Source: Sphaerisporangium album (lineage in GTDB: Bacteria > Actinomycetota > Actinomycetes > Streptosporangiales > Streptosporangiaceae). Taken from it: a stretch of DNA of 64,000 bases. The stretch is from positions 124,001 to 188,000 of the forward strand of contig NZ_QOIL01000011.1 in NCBI RefSeq assembly GCF_003323745.1, read 5' to 3'. A model generated the notes under the pieces. The model saw only the letters and a program-made list of their open reading frames with translations. It was not told the DNA's origin and searched no databases. Positions 19,038-27,159 of the stretch are shown one piece after another (the stretch's first letter is position 1; each line of letters begins with the position of its first letter). The position numbers and the translations under genes were made by a program.

Positions 19038-21248
19038 TCAGGCCAGTAGCCTCCGGGCGGCCACTTCGATGGCGGCCTCGGACAGCAGCACGTGGGCGGC
19101 GGCGTCGCCCAGCGGGACGAAGCTGTCCCGGGAGGTCACCCGGGCCGCCCTTCCGCCGAACCCGTTGTCGGCGAGCGCCGCCAGCACCCCCTCCGACACA
19201 CCTCCCGAGCCCCGGGTCTCGTCGGCGACGAGCACCCGGCCCGTCAGATCGGCCGCACGGATCAGGTCCTCCACCGGCAGGGGCGACAGCCACCGCAGGT
19301 CCAGCACACGGCAGCCGTACCCCTCGGAGGTCAGCCGGATCGCCGCCCGCAGGCTCATGCGCAGCCCGTTGCCGAACGTCACGATCGTCAGGTCGCGGCC
19401 GTCGCCGTACGAGCGCGCCCGGCCGATCGGCACGTGCGTCTCCGGCCACCTCGGCGGCGGGACGTACGGGGCGAGCCAGCCGTCGTCGCCCTCGTCCATC
19501 AGGTCGCGGGTGCCGTAGAGCGCGATCGGCTCCAGGAACACGCACACCTCGCCGTCGGCCTTGGCGGCGGCCACGCAGGTGCGCAGCATCGCGGCGGCGT
19601 CGTCGGGCCGGGCGGGGGAGGCGACGACCAGCCCGGGGATGTCGCGGAGCGCGGCCACCGAGTTGTCGTTGTGGAAGTGGCCGCCGAACCCCTTTTGGTA
19701 GGCGTACGCGGCCACCCGCACGACCATCGGGTTGCGGTAGGCGCCTTTGGAGAAGAACCGCAGCGAGGCGGCCTCGCCGCGGATCTGGTCCAGGGCGTTG
19801 TGCAGATAGGCGAGGTACTGGATCTCCGGAATCGGCAGCAGGCCGGAGGCGCCCGCGCCGAGCGCGAGGCCGAGCAGCGCCTGCTCGTCCAGCGGGGTGT
19901 CGAAGACGCGGGCCGCGCCGAACCTCTTCAGCAGCCCCCGCGTGACGCCGTACACGCCGCCCTTGCGCGCGACGTCCTCCCCGAACAGCAGGGCCTCCGG
20001 GTGCGCGGCGAGGATCTCGGTGAGCGTGCGGTTGATCGACTGGGCGAGCGTGAGCGGGCCCTCCTGCTCGGGCGGCGTCCCGCCGAACAGTGCGGAGCGG
20101 TCGCGCGGACGCCGCGCGGCCCGCTCCGCGACCAGGGCCGGGCGGCGGGGCGCCAGCGGCTCCATGACCTCGCGGGCCGAGCGCAGCCGGGGCCGCCGGG
20201 TGGACTCGAGCGCGAGCTTCAGCACGTGCTCGCGGATCGTCTCGTACCGCCCGAGCAGCTCGTCGGGGTCGGTCAGCCCCGCCTCGACCAGCAGCCTGGC
20301 CGTGGCGACCAGCGGGTCGCGGTCGAGGGACTCGGCGATCTCGCGCGGCGCGCGGTAGGCCGACTCGACGTCCGACCCCGCGTGCCCCATCAGCCGGACC
20401 ACCCGCAGGTGCAGGAAGGCGGGAGACCTGCGGGCGCGCACGTGCTCCGCGGCCTGGACGGCGGCGTCGTAGGCCTCGGCCAGGTCGCAGCCGTCGGCCT
20501 GGAACCTCGGGATCAGGGGGTGGCCGGACGCCTCGACCCACCCCGGCGGGGTGCGGACGCTGATGCCGATGCCGTTGTCCTCGCAGACGAACAGGACGGG
20601 CAGCGGCAGGCCCTGGTAGGCGCAGTAGGCGGCGGTGTTGAAGCCGGTGAGCGCGCTCGCGTGGTTGACGGAGGCGTCGCCGAAGCTGCACACCGCGATC
20701 GACTCGGCCGGCCAGGCGGAGGAGACGCCGAGCTTGCGCGCCCGCTCGATGGCGAACGCCACCCCCACCGCCCTCGGCAGGTGGCTGGCGATCGTCGAGG
20801 TCTGCGGGATGACCGCGAGGTCGGGGTGGCCGAACACCTTGTGGCGGCCTCCGGAGATCGGCTCCTCGGCCGCGGCGGACAGGCCGAGCAGGACGTCGCG
20901 CAGGCCCTCCTCGGCGAGCCGCCCCGCCTGCGCGGACCGCGCCAGGTAGAACGCCCCGGACCGGTAGTGCAGCAGCGCCGGGTCGGTGGCGCGGACGGCC
21001 GCGGCGACCGCCGCGTTGCCCTCGTGGCCGGCCGACCCGATCGTGTAGAAGCCCTCGCCCTGCTCGCGCAGCCACCGGGCGGCGATGTCGAGCAGCCGGC
21101 TGGCGAGCTGGATCTCGAAGAGCTCCCGGCAGCGCGCGCCCGTCAGCGTCGTGCCCGGGCGTATGGGCAGGGCGGGATCGCGTCGCGTACCCGGGGAGAG
21201 CGCGGCGACCGACTCGGTGAAGTGCGTCTCTACTGCGTCTCGGCCCAC
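19038..21248 (-). CDS. Fused alpha-beta E1 of a 2-oxoacid dehydrogenase
   Basis: The 736-residue protein joins E1 alpha (about residues 35-370) and E1 beta (about 395-736) in one chain. The alpha half shows IGSAGHEGN and the thiamine-diphosphate motif GDASVNHASALTGFN followed by CEDNGIGIS. The beta half shows LTEILAAHPEALLFGEDV, FDTPLDEQALLGLALG and GSGGVSEGVLAAL. Such enzymes decarboxylate pyruvate or branched-chain 2-oxoacids and pass the acyl group to a lipoyl E2. No E2 or E3 gene is in the window, so it must use distant partners. The start is GTG 21248. Branched-chain substrates are a guess encouraged by the leucine-type operon 7 kb away. Confidence 0.88.
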   Translation of the reverse strand: MGRDAVETHFTESVAALSPGTRRDPALPIRPGTTLTGARCRELFEIQLASRLLDIAARWLREQGEGFYTIGSAGHEGNAAVAAAVRATDPALLHYRSGAFYLARSAQAGRLAEEGLRDVLLGLSAAAEEPISGGRHKVFGHPDLAVIPQTSTIASHLPRAVGVAFAIERARKLGVSSAWPAESIAVCSFGDASVNHASALTGFNTAAYCAYQGLPLPVLFVCEDNGIGISVRTPPGWVEASGHPLIPRFQADGCDLAEAYDAAVQAAEHVRARRSPAFLHLRVVRLMGHAGSDVESAYRAPREIAESLDRDPLVATARLLVEAGLTDPDELLGRYETIREHVLKLALESTRRPRLRSAREVMEPLAPRRPALVAERAARRPRDRSALFGGTPPEQEGPLTLAQSINRTLTEILAAHPEALLFGEDVARKGGVYGVTRGLLKRFGAARVFDTPLDEQALLGLALGAGASGLLPIPEIQYLAYLHNALDQIRGEAASLRFFSKGAYRNPMVVRVAAYAYQKGFGGHFHNDNSVAALRDIPGLVVASPARPDDAAAMLRTCVAAAKADGEVCVFLEPIALYGTRDLMDEGDDGWLAPYVPPPRWPETHVPIGRARSYGDGRDLTIVTFGNGLRMSLRAAIRLTSEGYGCRVLDLRWLSPLPVEDLIRAADLTGRVLVADETRGSGGVSEGVLAALADNGFGGRAARVTSRDSFVPLGDAAAHVLLSEAAIEVAARRLLA

Positions 21249-21450: not shown

Positions 21451-22818
21451 GTGTTTCAACGCATGCGCGCCGTCGTCGTGGCGGTGGCGATGGGCGCCGG
21501 GGCGTTGGCCCTGGTCTCCTCACCCGCGCCGGCCACGGCGATGGCGGCCCCCCAGGTCACCTCCGTGGAGGTCGGCCCGAGCCCGGTCGTCGTCGAGAGC
21601 AGGGACGGCAGGCCGGTCACGTTCAGCTTCCTCGTGGACGGCGCGACCACGGGAGGCTTCACCCTCAAGCGGCCCGACGGGTCGAGCCTCGACGTCGAGG
21701 CCAAGAAGGCCGGCGAGGTCGGCGGCAAGCAGAAGTGGGAGGGCACCCGCAGGTTCGGGCGCTCGGACGCCCCCGGCACGTGGAACGTCACGGCCAAGGC
21801 GACCAGCGTGACCGGAACCGGCCAGGCGTCCAAGGACTTCACGGTCAGGCAGGTCTGGGAGACCGACCTCGCCGGGTTCGGCGCCGGACCCGAGCCGATC
21901 GGCCGGGGCGACACGCTGGTGCTCCGGGGCCGCCTGCTGATCAACGGCACCGACGGATGGAAGCCGTACGCGTCGCAGAAGGTGCACGTCGCGTTCCGCG
22001 CGCTCGGCGCCTCCGGCTACGAGCGGGTCGCCGACAAGTACACCGACGCCAGGGGCCGCTTCTCGCTCGGCGTCAGGGCGTGGCGCACCGGCTGGTGGCG
22101 GGCCGAGTACGACGGTTCGGACGTCGCGCACAAGTCGGTCAGCGACAGCGACCGGGTGGACGTGCGGATCAAGAGGACCGGCAGCCGGATCTCCGGCTTC
22201 ACCGTGTCCCCGAACCCCGCGGCCAAGGGCGACGATCTCGTCGCGCGCGGCCGCCTGGAGGCCTTGCGCGGGTGGGACGGCTACCGCGGGCAGAAGGTCA
22301 ACCTGCTGTTCAAGCCCGACGGGTCGAGCCGGTGGCAGTTCGTGGCCTACGACCGGACCGACCGCGGCGGCCGGTTCCGGATCGACGCCCGGGCCGAGCG
22401 GTCCGGCTGGTTCCGCGCCGAGTTCCCGGGCTCCCGCACCGTGCGGGGGTCGAGCAGCCGCGCGGTGTACGTGACGGTCAGGACACCGCCGGCCCCGGCC
22501 GCCGGCACCCGGATCATCCGGTTCGACGCCTACCCCGAGCCGGTCAAGTACGGCAGGTACGTCAAGAACCGGGGTGCGCTGCAGATCTGGAAGGGCGACC
22601 ACTGGGCCGGGTACGGCCACCAGAAGGTCGCGCTGTACTTCAAGCGGGCCGGGTCGTCCAAGTGGGAGTACGTCAAGACCGTCGCGACCGGCACCTCCGG
22701 GGCGTTCTGGACCCAGGTCAAGGCGTGGAACTCCGGCCACTGGAAGGTCACGTTCAAGGGGAACGCCGGGGCACGCGCCTCGGCCTCCCGGGCCGACTAC
22801 GTCAAGGTGAAGAGGTGA
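21451..22818 (+). CDS. Secreted protein with three related beta-rich repeats
   Basis: I start at GTG 21451, which has GGAAGGA 8 nt upstream; the frame is open back to 21391. The 455-residue product has a classical signal peptide (hydrophobic residues about 9-24, Ala-rich cleavage area) and is then beta-rich. An N-terminal Ig-like part (about 28-140, SVEVGPSPVVVESRDGRPVTF) precedes three related units of about 105 residues. Each contains a DxLxxRGRL-like strand, a QKVxxxF strand, an FxLxVRAWxTGxW-like strand and ends with a V-rich strand. Trp and aromatic spacing is conserved in all three. No catalytic motif is visible, so adhesion, binding or matrix function is possible but unproven. Confidence 0.8.
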   Translation: MFQRMRAVVVAVAMGAGALALVSSPAPATAMAAPQVTSVEVGPSPVVVESRDGRPVTFSFLVDGATTGGFTLKRPDGSSLDVEAKKAGEVGGKQKWEGTRRFGRSDAPGTWNVTAKATSVTGTGQASKDFTVRQVWETDLAGFGAGPEPIGRGDTLVLRGRLLINGTDGWKPYASQKVHVAFRALGASGYERVADKYTDARGRFSLGVRAWRTGWWRAEYDGSDVAHKSVSDSDRVDVRIKRTGSRISGFTVSPNPAAKGDDLVARGRLEALRGWDGYRGQKVNLLFKPDGSSRWQFVAYDRTDRGGRFRIDARAERSGWFRAEFPGSRTVRGSSSRAVYVTVRTPPAPAAGTRIIRFDAYPEPVKYGRYVKNRGALQIWKGDHWAGYGHQKVALYFKRAGSSKWEYVKTVATGTSGAFWTQVKAWNSGHWKVTFKGNAGARASASRADYVKVKR

Positions 22819-22842
22819 CCTAGGCGTACGGCCGATAGCGCA

Positions 22843-22878
22843 CCGCGGCCCGGGAACCCGCGGGTTCCCGGGCCGTGG
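22843..22878. terminator. Bidirectional terminator hairpin
   Basis: A perfect 15-bp-arm palindrome (22846-22875), extended by three more pairs including one G-U, lies between the convergent secreted-protein and regulator genes. Position and strength make a two-way transcription terminator the simplest reading. Confidence 0.75.
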
Positions 22879-22895
22879 CGCTCGCCCGTCAGAGA

Positions 22896-23924
22896 TCAGG
22901 CGCCGAACTCTCCTGCCTTGATGCCGTTCGCGAAGTCCGCCCACTCGCCCGGCGTGAAGACCAACGCCGGTCCGGTCGGCCTCTTGCTGTCCCGGATGCC
23001 GATGCGCCCGCCCGCCAGCGGGGCCACCTCGACGCAATTGCCGCCGCTACCGCCGGAGAAACTGGACTTCGCCCATCGCGCCACGGCGAGTTCCTCGTTC
23101 AGCTCCATATGTTCTCGAATCTCCCTAATTCGCTCAAGAGATGCTTGCTGAGGCAGCGCCTCAGCACGGATCATCTCGTATCGCGTAAGGAGTTCGTGCA
23201 CTTCCGAAGCACGTTCGACCACCTGGCCGTGCCCGCCCACCGCCTCGACGTAGACGGAGTCCGGAACGCCCGGGGCCTGCGCCATAAGGAATCCGCCCTC
23301 CAGACCGGCGGTGGAACGCGCCAGGAACGGCAATACCTGGACAATGACGTTGGAAACCGTTTCGAGGTCTTCCAGGCGCCGGAGCTGATCGATCATCACA
23401 CGGGCGTCGCCGATGACGCGGTGCAGCGCGCCCTCGTCCACGACGGCCCAGAACATCGGCGGCTCGGGGCGCTCGAAGATGGTCTGGCGTTCCATGCGCG
23501 CGGCCACCTGTTCCTCCACCCGTTCCAGCACCGGGCGCGGCTCGCCGCGGAAGATCGCCCTGGCGTACGCCTCGGTCTGGAGCAGGCCGGGGATGACCAG
23601 CGGCTCCCAGGCGCGCAGCGCCGAGGCCTCGCGCTCGATGTCCAGCCAGGGCCGGAACCACGGCGGCGTCGCCGAGTGGTGGATGAACGGCCACAGCCGG
23701 ACCAGCGCGCCGTCCAGGTCGAGCGCGTCGTCGCAGCGCTGGGCGAAGTCCCGCGACGGCGTGCGCTTGGCGGTCTCGACCGAGCTGATCATCGCGGCCG
23801 TGTACTGCACGCGGGCCGCGAGCTGCTCCTGGGAGAGACCGGCGGCCTTCCGGTGTTTGCGCAGCTCGTACCCGAAAAGGGCTCTCGGGCTCTCCGCGGG
23901 GTTGAGCTCACTTGGATGCGGCAT
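22896..23924 (-). CDS. XRE regulator with DUF5753 fused to a DUF397 domain
   Basis: The 342-residue protein has an N-terminal XRE helix-turn-helix (about residues 18-75, LRKHRKAAGLSQEQLAARV), a DUF5753 region (about 90-265, with VIPGLLQTEAYARAIF) and then, in the same open frame, a complete DUF397 domain (about 283-342, WAKSSFSGGSGGNC to FTPGEWADF). In actinobacteria these are almost always two neighbouring genes; here a linker of about 15 residues joins them with an internal Met at the usual DUF397 start. XRE/DUF397 pairs act as regulator and small antagonist in development and secondary metabolism (established for related BldB/WhiJ-type systems). A fused protein would be a self-regulated switch, which is my inference. 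Confidence 0.9.
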   Translation of the reverse strand: MPHPSELNPAESPRALFGYELRKHRKAAGLSQEQLAARVQYTAAMISSVETAKRTPSRDFAQRCDDALDLDGALVRLWPFIHHSATPPWFRPWLDIEREASALRAWEPLVIPGLLQTEAYARAIFRGEPRPVLERVEEQVAARMERQTIFERPEPPMFWAVVDEGALHRVIGDARVMIDQLRRLEDLETVSNVIVQVLPFLARSTAGLEGGFLMAQAPGVPDSVYVEAVGGHGQVVERASEVHELLTRYEMIRAEALPQQASLERIREIREHMELNEELAVARWAKSSFSGGSGGNCVEVAPLAGGRIGIRDSKRPTGPALVFTPGEWADFANGIKAGEFGA

Positions 23925-24244
23925 CGAGACGCTCCTCCGACCGCCCCGCGTTTCTCACGGCGGGATTAACCAGATCTGTCCGTGCGGTGTTGAAGGGAAA
24001 GCTCTACCGAGAGTAATCGCGAAGGAGCAATCTGAGAAGACCGGGCGAAGACGCCGGGGGGTATGGGTGGTCCGACGCCGTGGAAGACCTTCACGGCCGA
24101 ATGTAGCCCTTTAAGGCATTTATGGCTTTAACTCGACCGGCGGCGGCTTCGTTACAGAAATCGCGTCCGGGACGGGCCACGGAAACACGCGGCCCGGGCA
24201 CCTGGCCCGGGTCACTCTCCCATTCGACGAACGGTTCTCATCTC
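23925..24244. other. 320-bp divergent intergenic region
   Basis: The region between the fused XRE protein gene and the small plus-strand gene is less GC-rich than its surroundings. It contains a bulged hairpin (about 24079-24097) and a CCCGGG-bearing imperfect hairpin (about 24190-24214). I see no coding signal. It should hold both divergent promoters. Confidence 0.45.
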
Positions 24245-24628
24245 ATGAACCAGATCAAGACCAAGGCGGTTACGGAGAAGAAGGCGCACGCGGAGACGCG
24301 GCTGCTGGAGGCGCTGCACGACAGCCTGCGCGAGGAGGGCATCGCCTGCCTGGTGGTACGGCGGGTACGTCTGGTGCTCGCGTACGGGAAGATCCAGCCG
24401 GTGACCCACCAGCCCGGCGAGCTGCTGGTGTTCGGCCCGGACGGCTCGCCCCGGGGGCGGGTCACGATCCAGACGGGCATGCGCGGCACGGCCTACCGCG
24501 TCTGCCCGCGGGGCGGCGCGCCCGAGTGCCAGTTCGTCATGACGCAGCTCACCGAGGTCATCGCCTACCTCGGCGGCGTCGTGCGGGACTACGGCGCGGC
24601 GGTGACGGGCGAGCCGTCCGGCGGCTAG
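24245..24628 (+). CDS. Small conserved-looking protein of unknown function
   Basis: I choose ATG 24245; the frame is open to 24122 but the upstream part lacks coding character. The 127-residue soluble protein has a basic N-terminal helix followed by a mixed alpha/beta pattern (LVVRRVRLVLAYG, GELLVFGPDG, GRVTIQTGM) and a Cys-containing VCPRGGAPECQF segment. I do not recognise the family. Proteins of this size and composition commonly lie beside XRE/DUF5753 loci in actinobacteria, and here it is divergent from the fused regulator, so it may be its target. Confidence 0.6.
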   Translation: MNQIKTKAVTEKKAHAETRLLEALHDSLREEGIACLVVRRVRLVLAYGKIQPVTHQPGELLVFGPDGSPRGRVTIQTGMRGTAYRVCPRGGAPECQFVMTQLTEVIAYLGGVVRDYGAAVTGEPSGG

Positions 24629-24636
24629 TGTCGTGC

Positions 24637-24662
24637 CCGGCCGGCCGTATCCGGCCGGCCGT
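24637..24662. terminator. GC-rich hairpin between convergent genes
   Basis: Repeated GGCCGG/CCGGCC blocks flank CCGTATCC and can form a strong hairpin between the small gene ending at 24628 and the ABC permease ending at 24696. It likely terminates both transcripts. Confidence 0.6.
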
Positions 24663-24695
24663 GTCGGGGGTTCGGCGCCGGCCTGTCCGGTGGGG

Positions 24696-25568
24696 CTAGT
24701 CGGTGCGGCGGAACTGGGCGATGGCGACGCCGAGGAGGGCCGCGCCCATCAGGGCGACGATGCCGAGCTCCAGCGCGACCGGGACGTGCCAGCCGAACCA
24801 GTGGACGCCGGGGTTGAGCGCGTCGACGACCTGCGGGCTCACCGACAGGTGGCTGAACACGGCGTGGCGCATCGGGTCGACGGCGTACGTCAGGGGGTTG
24901 ATCTTCGTGAGCAGGGCGAGCCATGTCGGCAGGTTGGCCAGGGGGAACATGGCGCCCGACAGGAAGATCATCGGCATGATGGCCATCTGCATGACGCCGA
25001 AGAACGACTGCATGTTCTTCATGCGCGCCGCCAGGCTGACGCCGAAGGCGGTGATCGTGAACGAGGCCAGGAACATCTCGCCCAGCAGCGTGAGGATCAG
25101 CGTGGGGGAGTAGGGCACGTGCACCAGGCCGGCCAGGGCCAGGATGATGACGCCCTGGCCGGTCGCGACGATGCCGCCGCCCAGGCACTTGCCGATCACG
25201 ATCGAGCCGCGCCCGACCGGCGCGACCAGCATCTCGCGCAGGAACCCGAACTCGCGGTCCCAGACGATCGAGCCCGCGGAGAACATCGCCGTCGTGATCA
25301 CCGTCATGGCGATCACGCCCGGGTACATGAACGTGCGGAAGTCGACTCCCTGGGCGGCGCGGCCCGAGATCAGCGTGCTCAGGCCGGTTCCCATCACGAA
25401 CAGCCACAGCACGGGCTGGACGAGCACGGACACCATGCGCGTGCGGTCGTTGACGAACCGCAGCAGCTCGCGGTGCAGCACGATCTTGATCGCGCGCAGG
25501 TCGTGGCGGACGCTGCGGCCCGGCACACGCACCCGGACGACGCCGGGCGCGGTGACTCCGGTTGCCAT
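24696..25568 (-). CDS. ABC-2 type exporter permease (DrrB-like)
   Basis: The 290-residue protein has six predicted transmembrane segments and the ABC-2 permease layout. Its charged N-terminus HDLRAIKIVLHRELLRF is typical of DrrB-type drug or lipid exporters. It starts at ATG 25568. Its Shine-Dalgarno AGGAGG is formed by the last two Arg codons of the upstream ATPase gene, whose stop is 2 bp before this start, so the two are tightly coupled. Together with the ATPase it forms an exporter in the cytoplasmic membrane. The exported compound is unknown. Confidence 0.92.
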   Translation of the reverse strand: MATGVTAPGVVRVRVPGRSVRHDLRAIKIVLHRELLRFVNDRTRMVSVLVQPVLWLFVMGTGLSTLISGRAAQGVDFRTFMYPGVIAMTVITTAMFSAGSIVWDREFGFLREMLVAPVGRGSIVIGKCLGGGIVATGQGVIILALAGLVHVPYSPTLILTLLGEMFLASFTITAFGVSLAARMKNMQSFFGVMQMAIMPMIFLSGAMFPLANLPTWLALLTKINPLTYAVDPMRHAVFSHLSVSPQVVDALNPGVHWFGWHVPVALELGIVALMGAALLGVAIAQFRRTD

Positions 25569-25570
25569 CT

Positions 25571-26554
25571 CTACCTCCTCGCCATGGCGCGCATGACGGA
25601 CGACGCGCCGCTCTCGCCCTCGGCGTCACGGATCGTGGAGCCGGTGTAGTTCATGAAGACGTCGTCCAGCGACGGGCGCGACACGCTGACCGAGCGGATC
25701 GGCACGCCCAGCTCGGAGAACAGCCGGGGCACGAACGCCTCGCCGGAGGCCACGGCGAAGGTCACCATGCCCTCGCGGACGGCCGCGTCCAGGTCGAAGC
25801 GCTCCTTGAGCGCGGTGATGGCCGTCTCGTCGTCGGCGGTCTGGATCTGGACGCGGTCCTTGCCGACGCTGGCCTTCAGCGCCTCGGGCGAGTCGATGAC
25901 CACGATCTCGCCGTGGTCGATGATCGCGATGCGGTCGCAGTACTCGGCCTCGTCCATGTAGTGCGTCGTCATGAAGATCGTGATGTCCTCGGTGTGACGC
26001 AGTTTGTTGATATATCCCCAGATGGCGGAGCGGGTCTGCGGGTCCAGGCCCACGGTGGGCTCGTCCAGGAAGAGCACGCGCGGCGAGTGCAGCAACCCGC
26101 GCGCGATCTCCAGGCGGCGCTTCATGCCTCCCGAGAACGTGTTCACCTTGGCGTCCCTGCGGTCCCAGAGCGCGACCATCTCCAGGACCTGCTTGATGCG
26201 CTCTCCGACGACGTCCCTCGGCACACCGTACAGCTCGGCGTGGAAGCGCAGGTTCTGCGCGGCCGACAGGTATCCGTCCAGGGTGGGGTCCTGGAACACC
26301 AGCCCGATGTTGCGCCGCACCTCGTCGCGCTCCCGGACGACGTCGTGCCCCGCCACCAGGGCGCTGCCGCCCGTCGGGTTCACCAGCGTGCACAGCATGC
26401 TGATCGTGGTGGTCTTCCCGGCGCCGTTCGGGCCGAGGAAGCCGAACACCTCGCCCGGCCGCACGTCGAACTCGACGCCCTTCACGGCCTCCAGCGTGCC
26501 GTAGTTCTTCCTGAGCCCCCGTACGGCGACGGCGGGCGCCTCGCTTGTCGTCAC
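25571..26554 (-). CDS. ABC exporter ATP-binding subunit (DrrA-like)
   Basis: The start is GTG 26554, overlapping the PadR stop (GTGA); the longer open frame to 26755 runs inside padR. The 327-residue ATPase has Walker A GPNGAGKTTTISML near residue 42, signature FSGGMKRRLEIARG near 140, Walker B VLFLDEPTVGLDP near 160 and the H-loop MTTHYMDEAEYCDR. A C-terminal extension of about 85 residues after the nucleotide-binding domain is typical of the DrrA/DUF4162 group. It powers the DrrB-like permease encoded next. Confidence 0.94.
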   Translation of the reverse strand: MTTSEAPAVAVRGLRKNYGTLEAVKGVEFDVRPGEVFGFLGPNGAGKTTTISMLCTLVNPTGGSALVAGHDVVRERDEVRRNIGLVFQDPTLDGYLSAAQNLRFHAELYGVPRDVVGERIKQVLEMVALWDRRDAKVNTFSGGMKRRLEIARGLLHSPRVLFLDEPTVGLDPQTRSAIWGYINKLRHTEDITIFMTTHYMDEAEYCDRIAIIDHGEIVVIDSPEALKASVGKDRVQIQTADDETAITALKERFDLDAAVREGMVTFAVASGEAFVPRLFSELGVPIRSVSVSRPSLDDVFMNYTGSTIRDAEGESGASSVMRAMARR

Positions 26555-27159
26555 TGTTCCTCTTCCTCCTCGTCCCCGCCTTCCGCGAGGATCGCGAAGA
26601 TCGACCTTCTGGTGGTCTTGAGCAGCCTGCGCGCCGCGGCCAGTTGCTCGGGAGTGGCGACCTGGGTGAGCTGGGCGAACGCGTCGCCGAGCCGCGCCCA
26701 GAGCATGCGCAACTCCATCATCTCCTCGGGCAGGCTGCCCGCGACCTCCGACCACGTGTTGACCAGCACGTCGCCGTGCTCGGCGATGTGGCCGCGGCCC
26801 TTACCGGTGAGCTCGTAGGTGCGGCTGCCGCCGGAGTCCGTCCCGGCGATCAGGCCCTCGTCCTCCAGTTGCTGGAGCGCGGGGTAGACCGAGCCGGGGC
26901 TCGGCCGCCAGATGCCGTGGCTGCGGCTCTGGATCTCCTGGATCATCTGGTAGCCGTTGCGCCCCCGCTCGGCCAGCAGGGAGAGCAGCGCGGCCCGTAC
27001 GTCCCCGCGGCGCACGCGGGGCGCGAAGTGGGCTCCCGGCGGGCACGGAGGGGCGGGCGGGAACGGCGGCGCCGGGGGAACGGGGCCCGGCGGGGGCGCG
27101 CCGAACGGCGGCGGCACGGGCGGGGGTGGCGCCTGTGGTGGTGGCGGTGGCGCGGTCAT
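26551..27159 (-). CDS. PadR-family transcriptional repressor
   Basis: The 202-residue protein has an extremely Pro-rich first 45 residues and then a PadR winged helix (about 50-130, with LLSLLAERGRNGYQMIQEI and PSPGSVYPALQQLEDEGLI). A C-terminal helical dimerisation part ends in an acidic EEEEEQ tail. It is the first gene of the padR-ATPase-permease operon. PadR proteins usually repress their own operon and lift off on ligand binding. Two matching palindromes upstream (27207-27237) support autoregulation. The Pro-rich N-terminus is unusual for the family and may be disordered. Confidence 0.93.
   Translation of the reverse strand: MTAPPPPPQAPPPPVPPPFGAPPPGPVPPAPPFPPAPPCPPGAHFAPRVRRGDVRAALLSLLAERGRNGYQMIQEIQSRSHGIWRPSPGSVYPALQQLEDEGLIAGTDSGGSRTYELTGKGRGHIAEHGDVLVNTWSEVAGSLPEEMMELRMLWARLGDAFAQLTQVATPEQLAAARRLLKTTRRSIFAILAEGGDEEEEEQ

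Follow-up and report, generated by a model that had tools for sequence, protein, structure and literature searches.

A WhiJ-type XRE-DUF5753 regulator joined in frame to DUF397 in Sphaerisporangium album, with a probable origin from two overlapping genes

Regulators of the XRE-DUF5753 type and DUF397 proteins are usually encoded in actinobacteria by two adjacent genes, yet within the 64,000-nucleotide stretch of the S. album genome analyzed here (hereafter "the window") both parts are found in a single gene. This raises the questions of how the two genes became joined and of how the joined protein might work. The gene occupies positions 22896..23924 on the minus strand, begins with ATG, and encodes 342 aa. 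ORF and Pfam analysis of 22896-23924 showed one uninterrupted frame containing an HTH_31 domain (residues 17-78; 23691..23876, minus strand; 58.1 bits against a cut-off of 27), a DUF5753 domain (residues 91-268; 23121..23654, minus strand; 165.2 bits, cut-off 23.4) and a DUF397 domain (residues 282-336; 22917..23081, minus strand; 79.5 bits, cut-off 24). An earlier note, made from the DNA sequence only, had described the regulator and DUF397 as both complete and joined in frame, and the domain scores bear this out.

The N-terminal HTH_31/XRE domain and the DUF5753 domain C-terminal to it, both scoring above cut-off, identify the protein as a WhiJ-like XRE regulator. The DUF397 part carries the CVE and RDS motifs (present as NCVEV and IRDSK), and CxE and RDS motifs are markers of the DUF397/BldB family (PMC7159879); together with the above-cut-off Pfam match, they also assign the protein to that family. 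Having both parts in one frame, the protein corresponds to the WhiJ-BldB fusions mentioned in PMC10294661. The genome (9.3 Mb in 62 contigs) contains 44 DUF397 matches at E <= 0.001, some of them fragments; the match in the window lies in an open frame of 352 aa, while the other 43 lie in frames of at most 214 aa.

Searching related genomes for this architecture, as the earlier note had proposed, retrieved fused orthologs without internal stops in two others of the 11 genomes of the genus (G008, 84% identity; G003, 83%). Both are exactly 342 aa long and align without gaps to the window protein, and the CVE and RDS motifs are intact in all three species. The three fused genes share one collinear region of more than 14 kb with about 86% nucleotide identity. 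No further fused ortholog was found among 341 genomes of the family at E <= 1e-95, with 6 candidates scored per genome.

In the remaining eight genomes of the genus, the sequences flanking the locus (window positions near 22.8 kb and 24.69 kb) lie close together without the fused gene, and the 19.5-20 kb stretches taken around this empty site gave no match to the DUF5753 and DUF397 domain models. The flanks almost abut in G005 and G009; other sequence intervenes in G001, G002, G004 and G007, and a 475-aa neighbor is also missing at the site in G006 and G010. Since the flanks are found together without the fused gene, it and the divergent small gene beside it behave as a cassette (22819..24693; about 1.9 kb, boundaries approximate), present in 3 of the 11 genomes. 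Upstream of the fused gene and on its strand, region 24696-27159 encodes an ABC-2 permease, a DrrA-like ATPase and a PadR regulator; all 11 genomes of the genus have the permease. On the other side, 19038-21248 encodes another composite protein, with dehydrogenase E1 alpha and transketolase-like beta domains in a single polypeptide of 736 aa.

The closest relatives of the fused gene are five unfused pairs with 60-65% identity (in G001, G004, G005, G009 and G010), which have the usual two-gene arrangement described in the earlier note. These pairs are collinear with one another at a separate site (site B); in the three fused genomes, that site was found to contain neither DUF5753 nor DUF397. 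Across the 11 genomes, three carry the fused gene, five the site-B pair and three neither (E <= 1e-95; L190, L191, L192). The two forms thus appear mutually exclusive, a pattern that is suggestive and not significant (about 0.12, calculated by hand).

Comparison with the unfused pairs points to how the joining may have taken place. In all five, the end of the regulator gene overlaps the DUF397 ATG by 10-13 nt, with DUF397 read in another frame. The fused gene still has an internal ATG (Met273; 23106..23108, minus strand) that matches the DUF397 starts of the unfused pairs, so that the earlier note was right to see a former DUF397 start codon inside the protein. Twelve nucleotides before it lies a Shine-Dalgarno-like AGGGAG (23121..23126, minus strand), identical in the three fused genes, and just beyond the ATG is an out-of-frame TGA (23099..23101, minus strand) that we read as the fossil stop codon of the XRE gene, as the same overlap is seen in the unfused relatives. 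In the old regulator frame (that of the ATG plus one), the sequence reads TGG-AGC-TGA in the window and TGC-AGC-TGA in both orthologs. The spacing from AGGGAG to ATG is 11 nt in 5/5 unfused pairs and 12 nt in 3/3 fused genes; this difference, together with the TGA kept out of frame, suggests a net +1 indel between the Shine-Dalgarno sequence and the ATG. The fusion is therefore best explained, as far as sequence comparison with relatives just 60-65% identical can tell, by the merging of two overlapping genes through a net +1 indel immediately before the DUF397 start. In a phylogenetic tree the three fused proteins were sister to the five unfused pairs with support of 94/84, slightly below the strong-support threshold of the tree tool, and the tool counted a single label change for the fused group, as measured against the five site-B pairs and with 32 unlabelled rows uncounted. 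We infer that the merger was probably a single event that preceded the divergence of the three fused species.

Fusions of this kind are not unique to this lineage. In its Discussion, PMC10294661 counted 129 WhiJ-BldB fusions in 2023 and gave a median of 19 paralogs for its 3,358 bldB-containing genomes; the 11 genomes of the genus studied here have 19 to 71 DUF397 matches each. A second fusion in the genus (L017 1486-2490, G007:C80) has the junction GTG GTG TCG AAA ATG where the unfused L011 has GTG TGA ACC AAA ATG, and thus appears to have formed by loss of the stop between two in-frame genes. A third, found on an IMG/VR viral contig (L106 1496-2536), also has Met residues at its junction; in the tree it stands well apart, at the end of a long branch, and its placement is unsure. 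Since L017 nests with unfused L011 and L022 (support 100/99) and the junctions differ, both of these fusions look separate in origin from that in the window. Four other candidates, taken among the matches listed out of 428 DUF397 matches in the genus (G004:C4, G004:C11, G003:C1:1687317 and G010:C32), had frames of at least 290 aa without an in-frame DUF5753 and were rejected.

In a set composed of L031 and 80 viral-contig loci, some of the contigs being near-duplicates, 69 of the 82 DUF5753 matches were followed by a DUF397 within 900 nt, and only one of these 69 was fused. The frame of DUF397 relative to the regulator in these cases was +2 in 42, +1 in 15, and identical in 12, one of which is the fused case. 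Surveys of 341 genomes at family level, 345 at order level and 394 at class level (overlapping sets, the order set being the family set plus four genomes) retrieved no stop-free full-length match beyond four in the genus. This count is a lower bound, because scoring was limited to the 8-9 top candidates of each genome at strict thresholds (E 1e-40 to 1e-45), which diverged fusions would escape. Taken together, the 129 published fusions and the 1 of 69 observed here indicate that the architecture is known and rare; what the present analysis adds to an already published architecture is the likely origin by frameshift, the synteny and the kept start site.

To see how the joined parts may be arranged, we examined predicted structures. 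For the fusion, AlphaFold2 gave a model with pLDDT 93.4 and pTM 0.85. Its input alignment had 44 rows; DUF397 is covered by 8 of them, six of which read through a stop. The model contains a single continuous helix (residues 259-280) that spans the junction from DUF5753 towards DUF397. Foldseek results for the whole model were largely HTH domains, and DUF5753 was therefore modelled alone (residues 84-272; pLDDT 95.2, pTM 0.90). The best Foldseek match of this model was to SauUSI (E 7.9e-4, the sole match under 0.001), and VIA-align also placed SauUSI first (7clg; Z 11.1, rmsd 3.1, 141 aligned), with TrmBL2 (5bqt) at Z 9.7 and the sugar-binding domain of TrmB (2f5t) at Z 8.7 (rmsd 3.2, 118 aligned), scores to be read against the Z of 7 to 8 that this program gives even to models lacking any clear match. 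The best 50 of 184 chains with Z >= 2 comprised phospholipase D (PLD)-type enzymes and nucleases, TrmB and TrmBL2, and FAM83, F13 and polyphosphate kinase, the last three of which we take to be PLD-like. A search of the PDB by sequence (E <= 1) gave 11 matches, 10 of them covering the HTH; a match of residues 183-270 to a designed ferredoxin (E 0.41) was taken as chance.

The catalytic motif of phospholipase D is HxK(x)4D. Residues 85-272 contain no HxK motif, and the 44 DUF5753 rows have no His or Lys position that is invariant or close to it. Conserved residues in this region include E97, Q116, T117, R143, R146, E164 and Q180. DUF5753 is thus assigned to the phospholipase D fold by its predicted model, and falls outside the catalytic phospholipases D. 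The combination of a PLD fold with a missing HKD motif, as in the sugar-binding domain of TrmB, suggests a ligand sensor, and we consider it likely from the model that DUF5753 is a PLD-fold sensor or docking domain rather than an enzyme. We found no open-licence PMC literature that calls DUF5753 PLD-like.

Next to the fused gene on the opposite strand lies a small gene (24245..24628, plus strand), which encodes 127 aa if read from its ATG at 24245 and also accompanies both fused orthologs. An upstream ATG at 24122 would give a protein of 168 aa, and this longer form had no Pfam or NCBIfam match. Between the window and the sister species the 127-aa protein shows just 54-56% identity, as against 83-84% for the neighboring fused protein; a relative with 44% identity occurs in L030 (3146-3472), near another XRE-DUF397 pair. 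Between the two genes, in the intergenic DNA at 23925-24244, we found a conserved element, TACCGAGAGTAATCG (24005..24019), which is a candidate operator or promoter element. It matches at 15/15 positions in the three fused loci and in the unfused L005 and at 14/15 in L004, the motif having been derived from the same loci that match best; in L007 it scored no better than shuffles. As judged from this conservation, the 15-mer is the best candidate site for the regulator.

Our preferred reading, to which we assign a probability of about 0.6, is that the fused gene encodes a single-chain actinobacterial regulator of the WhiJ/BldB type (XRE-DUF5753 / DUF397) that works as follows. The HTH would bind the intergenic element and control its own promoter together with the divergent 127-aa gene. 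DUF5753, with its PLD fold lacking the catalytic motif, would sense a small molecule or serve as a docking platform. DUF397, positioned at the end of the predicted helix 259-280, would act on its own chain or on its dimer mate, and its action in cis would relieve DNA binding or modulate it, in the way presumed for free DUF397 proteins acting in trans. The covalent link would take the place of the translational coupling between the overlapping genes.

That DUF397 acts in cis is something we infer by analogy with two-protein systems. According to the model published in PMC4255298, WhiJ acts as a repressor, and a signal leads the DUF397 protein to lift the repression; strains that lack the DUF397 gene SCO4542 are bald, and this is suppressed when whiJ is deleted as well (PMC4255298). 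As described in the Discussion of PMC10294661, the repeats bound by WhiJ9 lie between iosA and whiJ9, activation of iosA in a bldB mutant requires WhiJ9, and loss of WhiJ9 doubles whiJ9 transcription, so that WhiJ9 probably represses itself.

Could the gene also deliver free DUF397? A kept internal ATG, or a transcript begun within the gene, might add free DUF397 to the 342-aa fusion, a possibility that we regard as real though clearly the less likely one. In its favor, the AGGGAG and ATG are preserved in all three species, but the 12-nt spacing between them is long. Moreover, overlapping stop and start codons in the unfused pairs allow termination-reinitiation, and this route is gone in the fused gene because an in-frame stop is absent there. 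Shine-Dalgarno duplex energies at the internal ATG (-7.9/-7.9/-8.5) rank 4, 2 and 2 among the in-frame internal ATG/GTG sites of the three species; the six unfused starts used for comparison have stronger values (-9.0 to -11.0), and Met214 outscores Met273 in 2/3 species. Codon usage is also unusual at the junction, with a GC3 of 0.33 over codons 265-273 as compared to 0.81-0.85 over the gene, and all 10 of the degenerate codons for conserved residues within codons 267-278 are identical in the three species, which is the joint longest such run. However, an equal run of 10 codons occurs at 99-111, about one run per gene is expected by chance by our estimate, and codon 274 itself differs by one base among the three species; given the chance expectation and the second run, the codon signal is suggestive only. 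With respect to an internal transcript, in S. venezuelae a bldB9 promoter lies inside whiJ9 (PMC10294661), while our scan of 22800-24700, which covered the sigma-70-like type only, found no promoter. The kept Shine-Dalgarno sequence and ATG make the idea of an internal start testable. The earlier note had proposed that joining fixes the ratio of regulator to DUF397 at 1:1 and could create an intramolecular switch; if the ATG is in use, the ratio would differ from 1:1.

A bolder proposal would treat the fusion as a natural trap of the regulator-partner complex, in which DUF397 acts in cis on a catalytically dead PLD-fold ligand sensor (DUF5753), the Shine-Dalgarno sequence and ATG dose extra free DUF397, and the DUF5753 family as a whole are small-molecule sensors, bacterial equivalents of TrmB in their build. 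We hold this combination only tentatively, as a speculation that is rather more likely wrong than right in its entirety.

It may alternatively be argued that the fusion is decaying, with a functional XRE part and DUF397 as a passenger on its way out. We computed dN/dS (NG86) in three pairwise comparisons: the window gene with G003, the window gene with G008, and G003 with G008. The whole gene gave 0.155 in both window-gene comparisons and 0.24 for G003 with G008; the corresponding values were 0.07-0.09 and 0.25 for the HTH, 0.14-0.15 and 0.16 for DUF5753, and 0.27 (both comparisons) and 0.32 for the DUF397 core, with 0.32-0.55 over residues 272-342. The higher values in DUF397 (0.27-0.32, against 0.14-0.16 in DUF5753) speak for decay to the extent that this domain may be under less constraint. 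Nevertheless, dN/dS is below 1 in every domain in all three comparisons, the CVE and RDS motifs have been kept in the three species, and DUF397 scores far above its Pfam cut-off, which together make decay improbable. Still less credible is a fused type II toxin-antitoxin module with DUF397 as toxin and XRE as antitoxin: such a role has been proposed for the two-gene form (PMC2701414; PMC7159879), but when fourteen S. coelicolor pairs were overexpressed, 0/14 behaved as type II toxin-antitoxin systems (PMC10364602). An assembly or sequencing error, for which one single-base indel would suffice and which the earlier note had named along with a stop or frameshift as what could undo the fusion, is rejected as practically negligible, since the assemblies of two sister species give the identical frame and length, free of stops, at a collinear site.

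DUF397 pairs steer development and antibiotic production, and genomes encode many DUF397 proteins. The fusion is a useful natural experiment on how regulator and DUF397 cooperate: it has survived speciation, and the joined state is therefore compatible with function. It also offers a single construct for structural work, whereas free Scr2 was insoluble (PMC6262351). For DUF5753, a common regulator domain, the predicted PLD fold supplies a concrete hypothesis, namely a ligand pocket rather than an enzyme.

Among known regulators, the archaeal TrmB and TrmBL2 likewise combine a DNA-binding domain with a PLD-fold domain that lacks an enzyme motif. TrmB consists of a winged-helix DNA-binding domain and a sugar-binding PLD-fold domain, and we know of no DUF397 in it. 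The HTH of the window protein is of the cro/C1 type (HTH_31) and no TrmB Pfam match was found at E <= 0.1, which places the window protein outside the TrmB family.

The earlier note had further stated that the products of the two genes interact, which is an overstatement: in the published accounts considered here, the evidence for interaction is genetic suppression (PMC4255298), PMC6262351 reports that Scr1-Scr2 binding could not be demonstrated because Scr2 was insoluble, and the two-hybrid data in PMC10294661 concern BldB with BldB paralogs. The WhiJ-BldB fusions of PMC10294661 likewise hold a WhiJ-type XRE regulator and BldB/DUF397 in one polypeptide; the Discussion of that paper does not say which sequences or organisms the 129 are or how they arose, and the window gene could be among them. 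The pairs WhiJ/SCO4542, Scr1/Scr2 and WhiJ9/BldB9 have the same domains in the same order as the fusion, and the WhiJ9 pair, like the fusion, is adjoined by a divergent small gene. However, in each of these three systems the domains are divided between two proteins, whereas in the window they form a single one.
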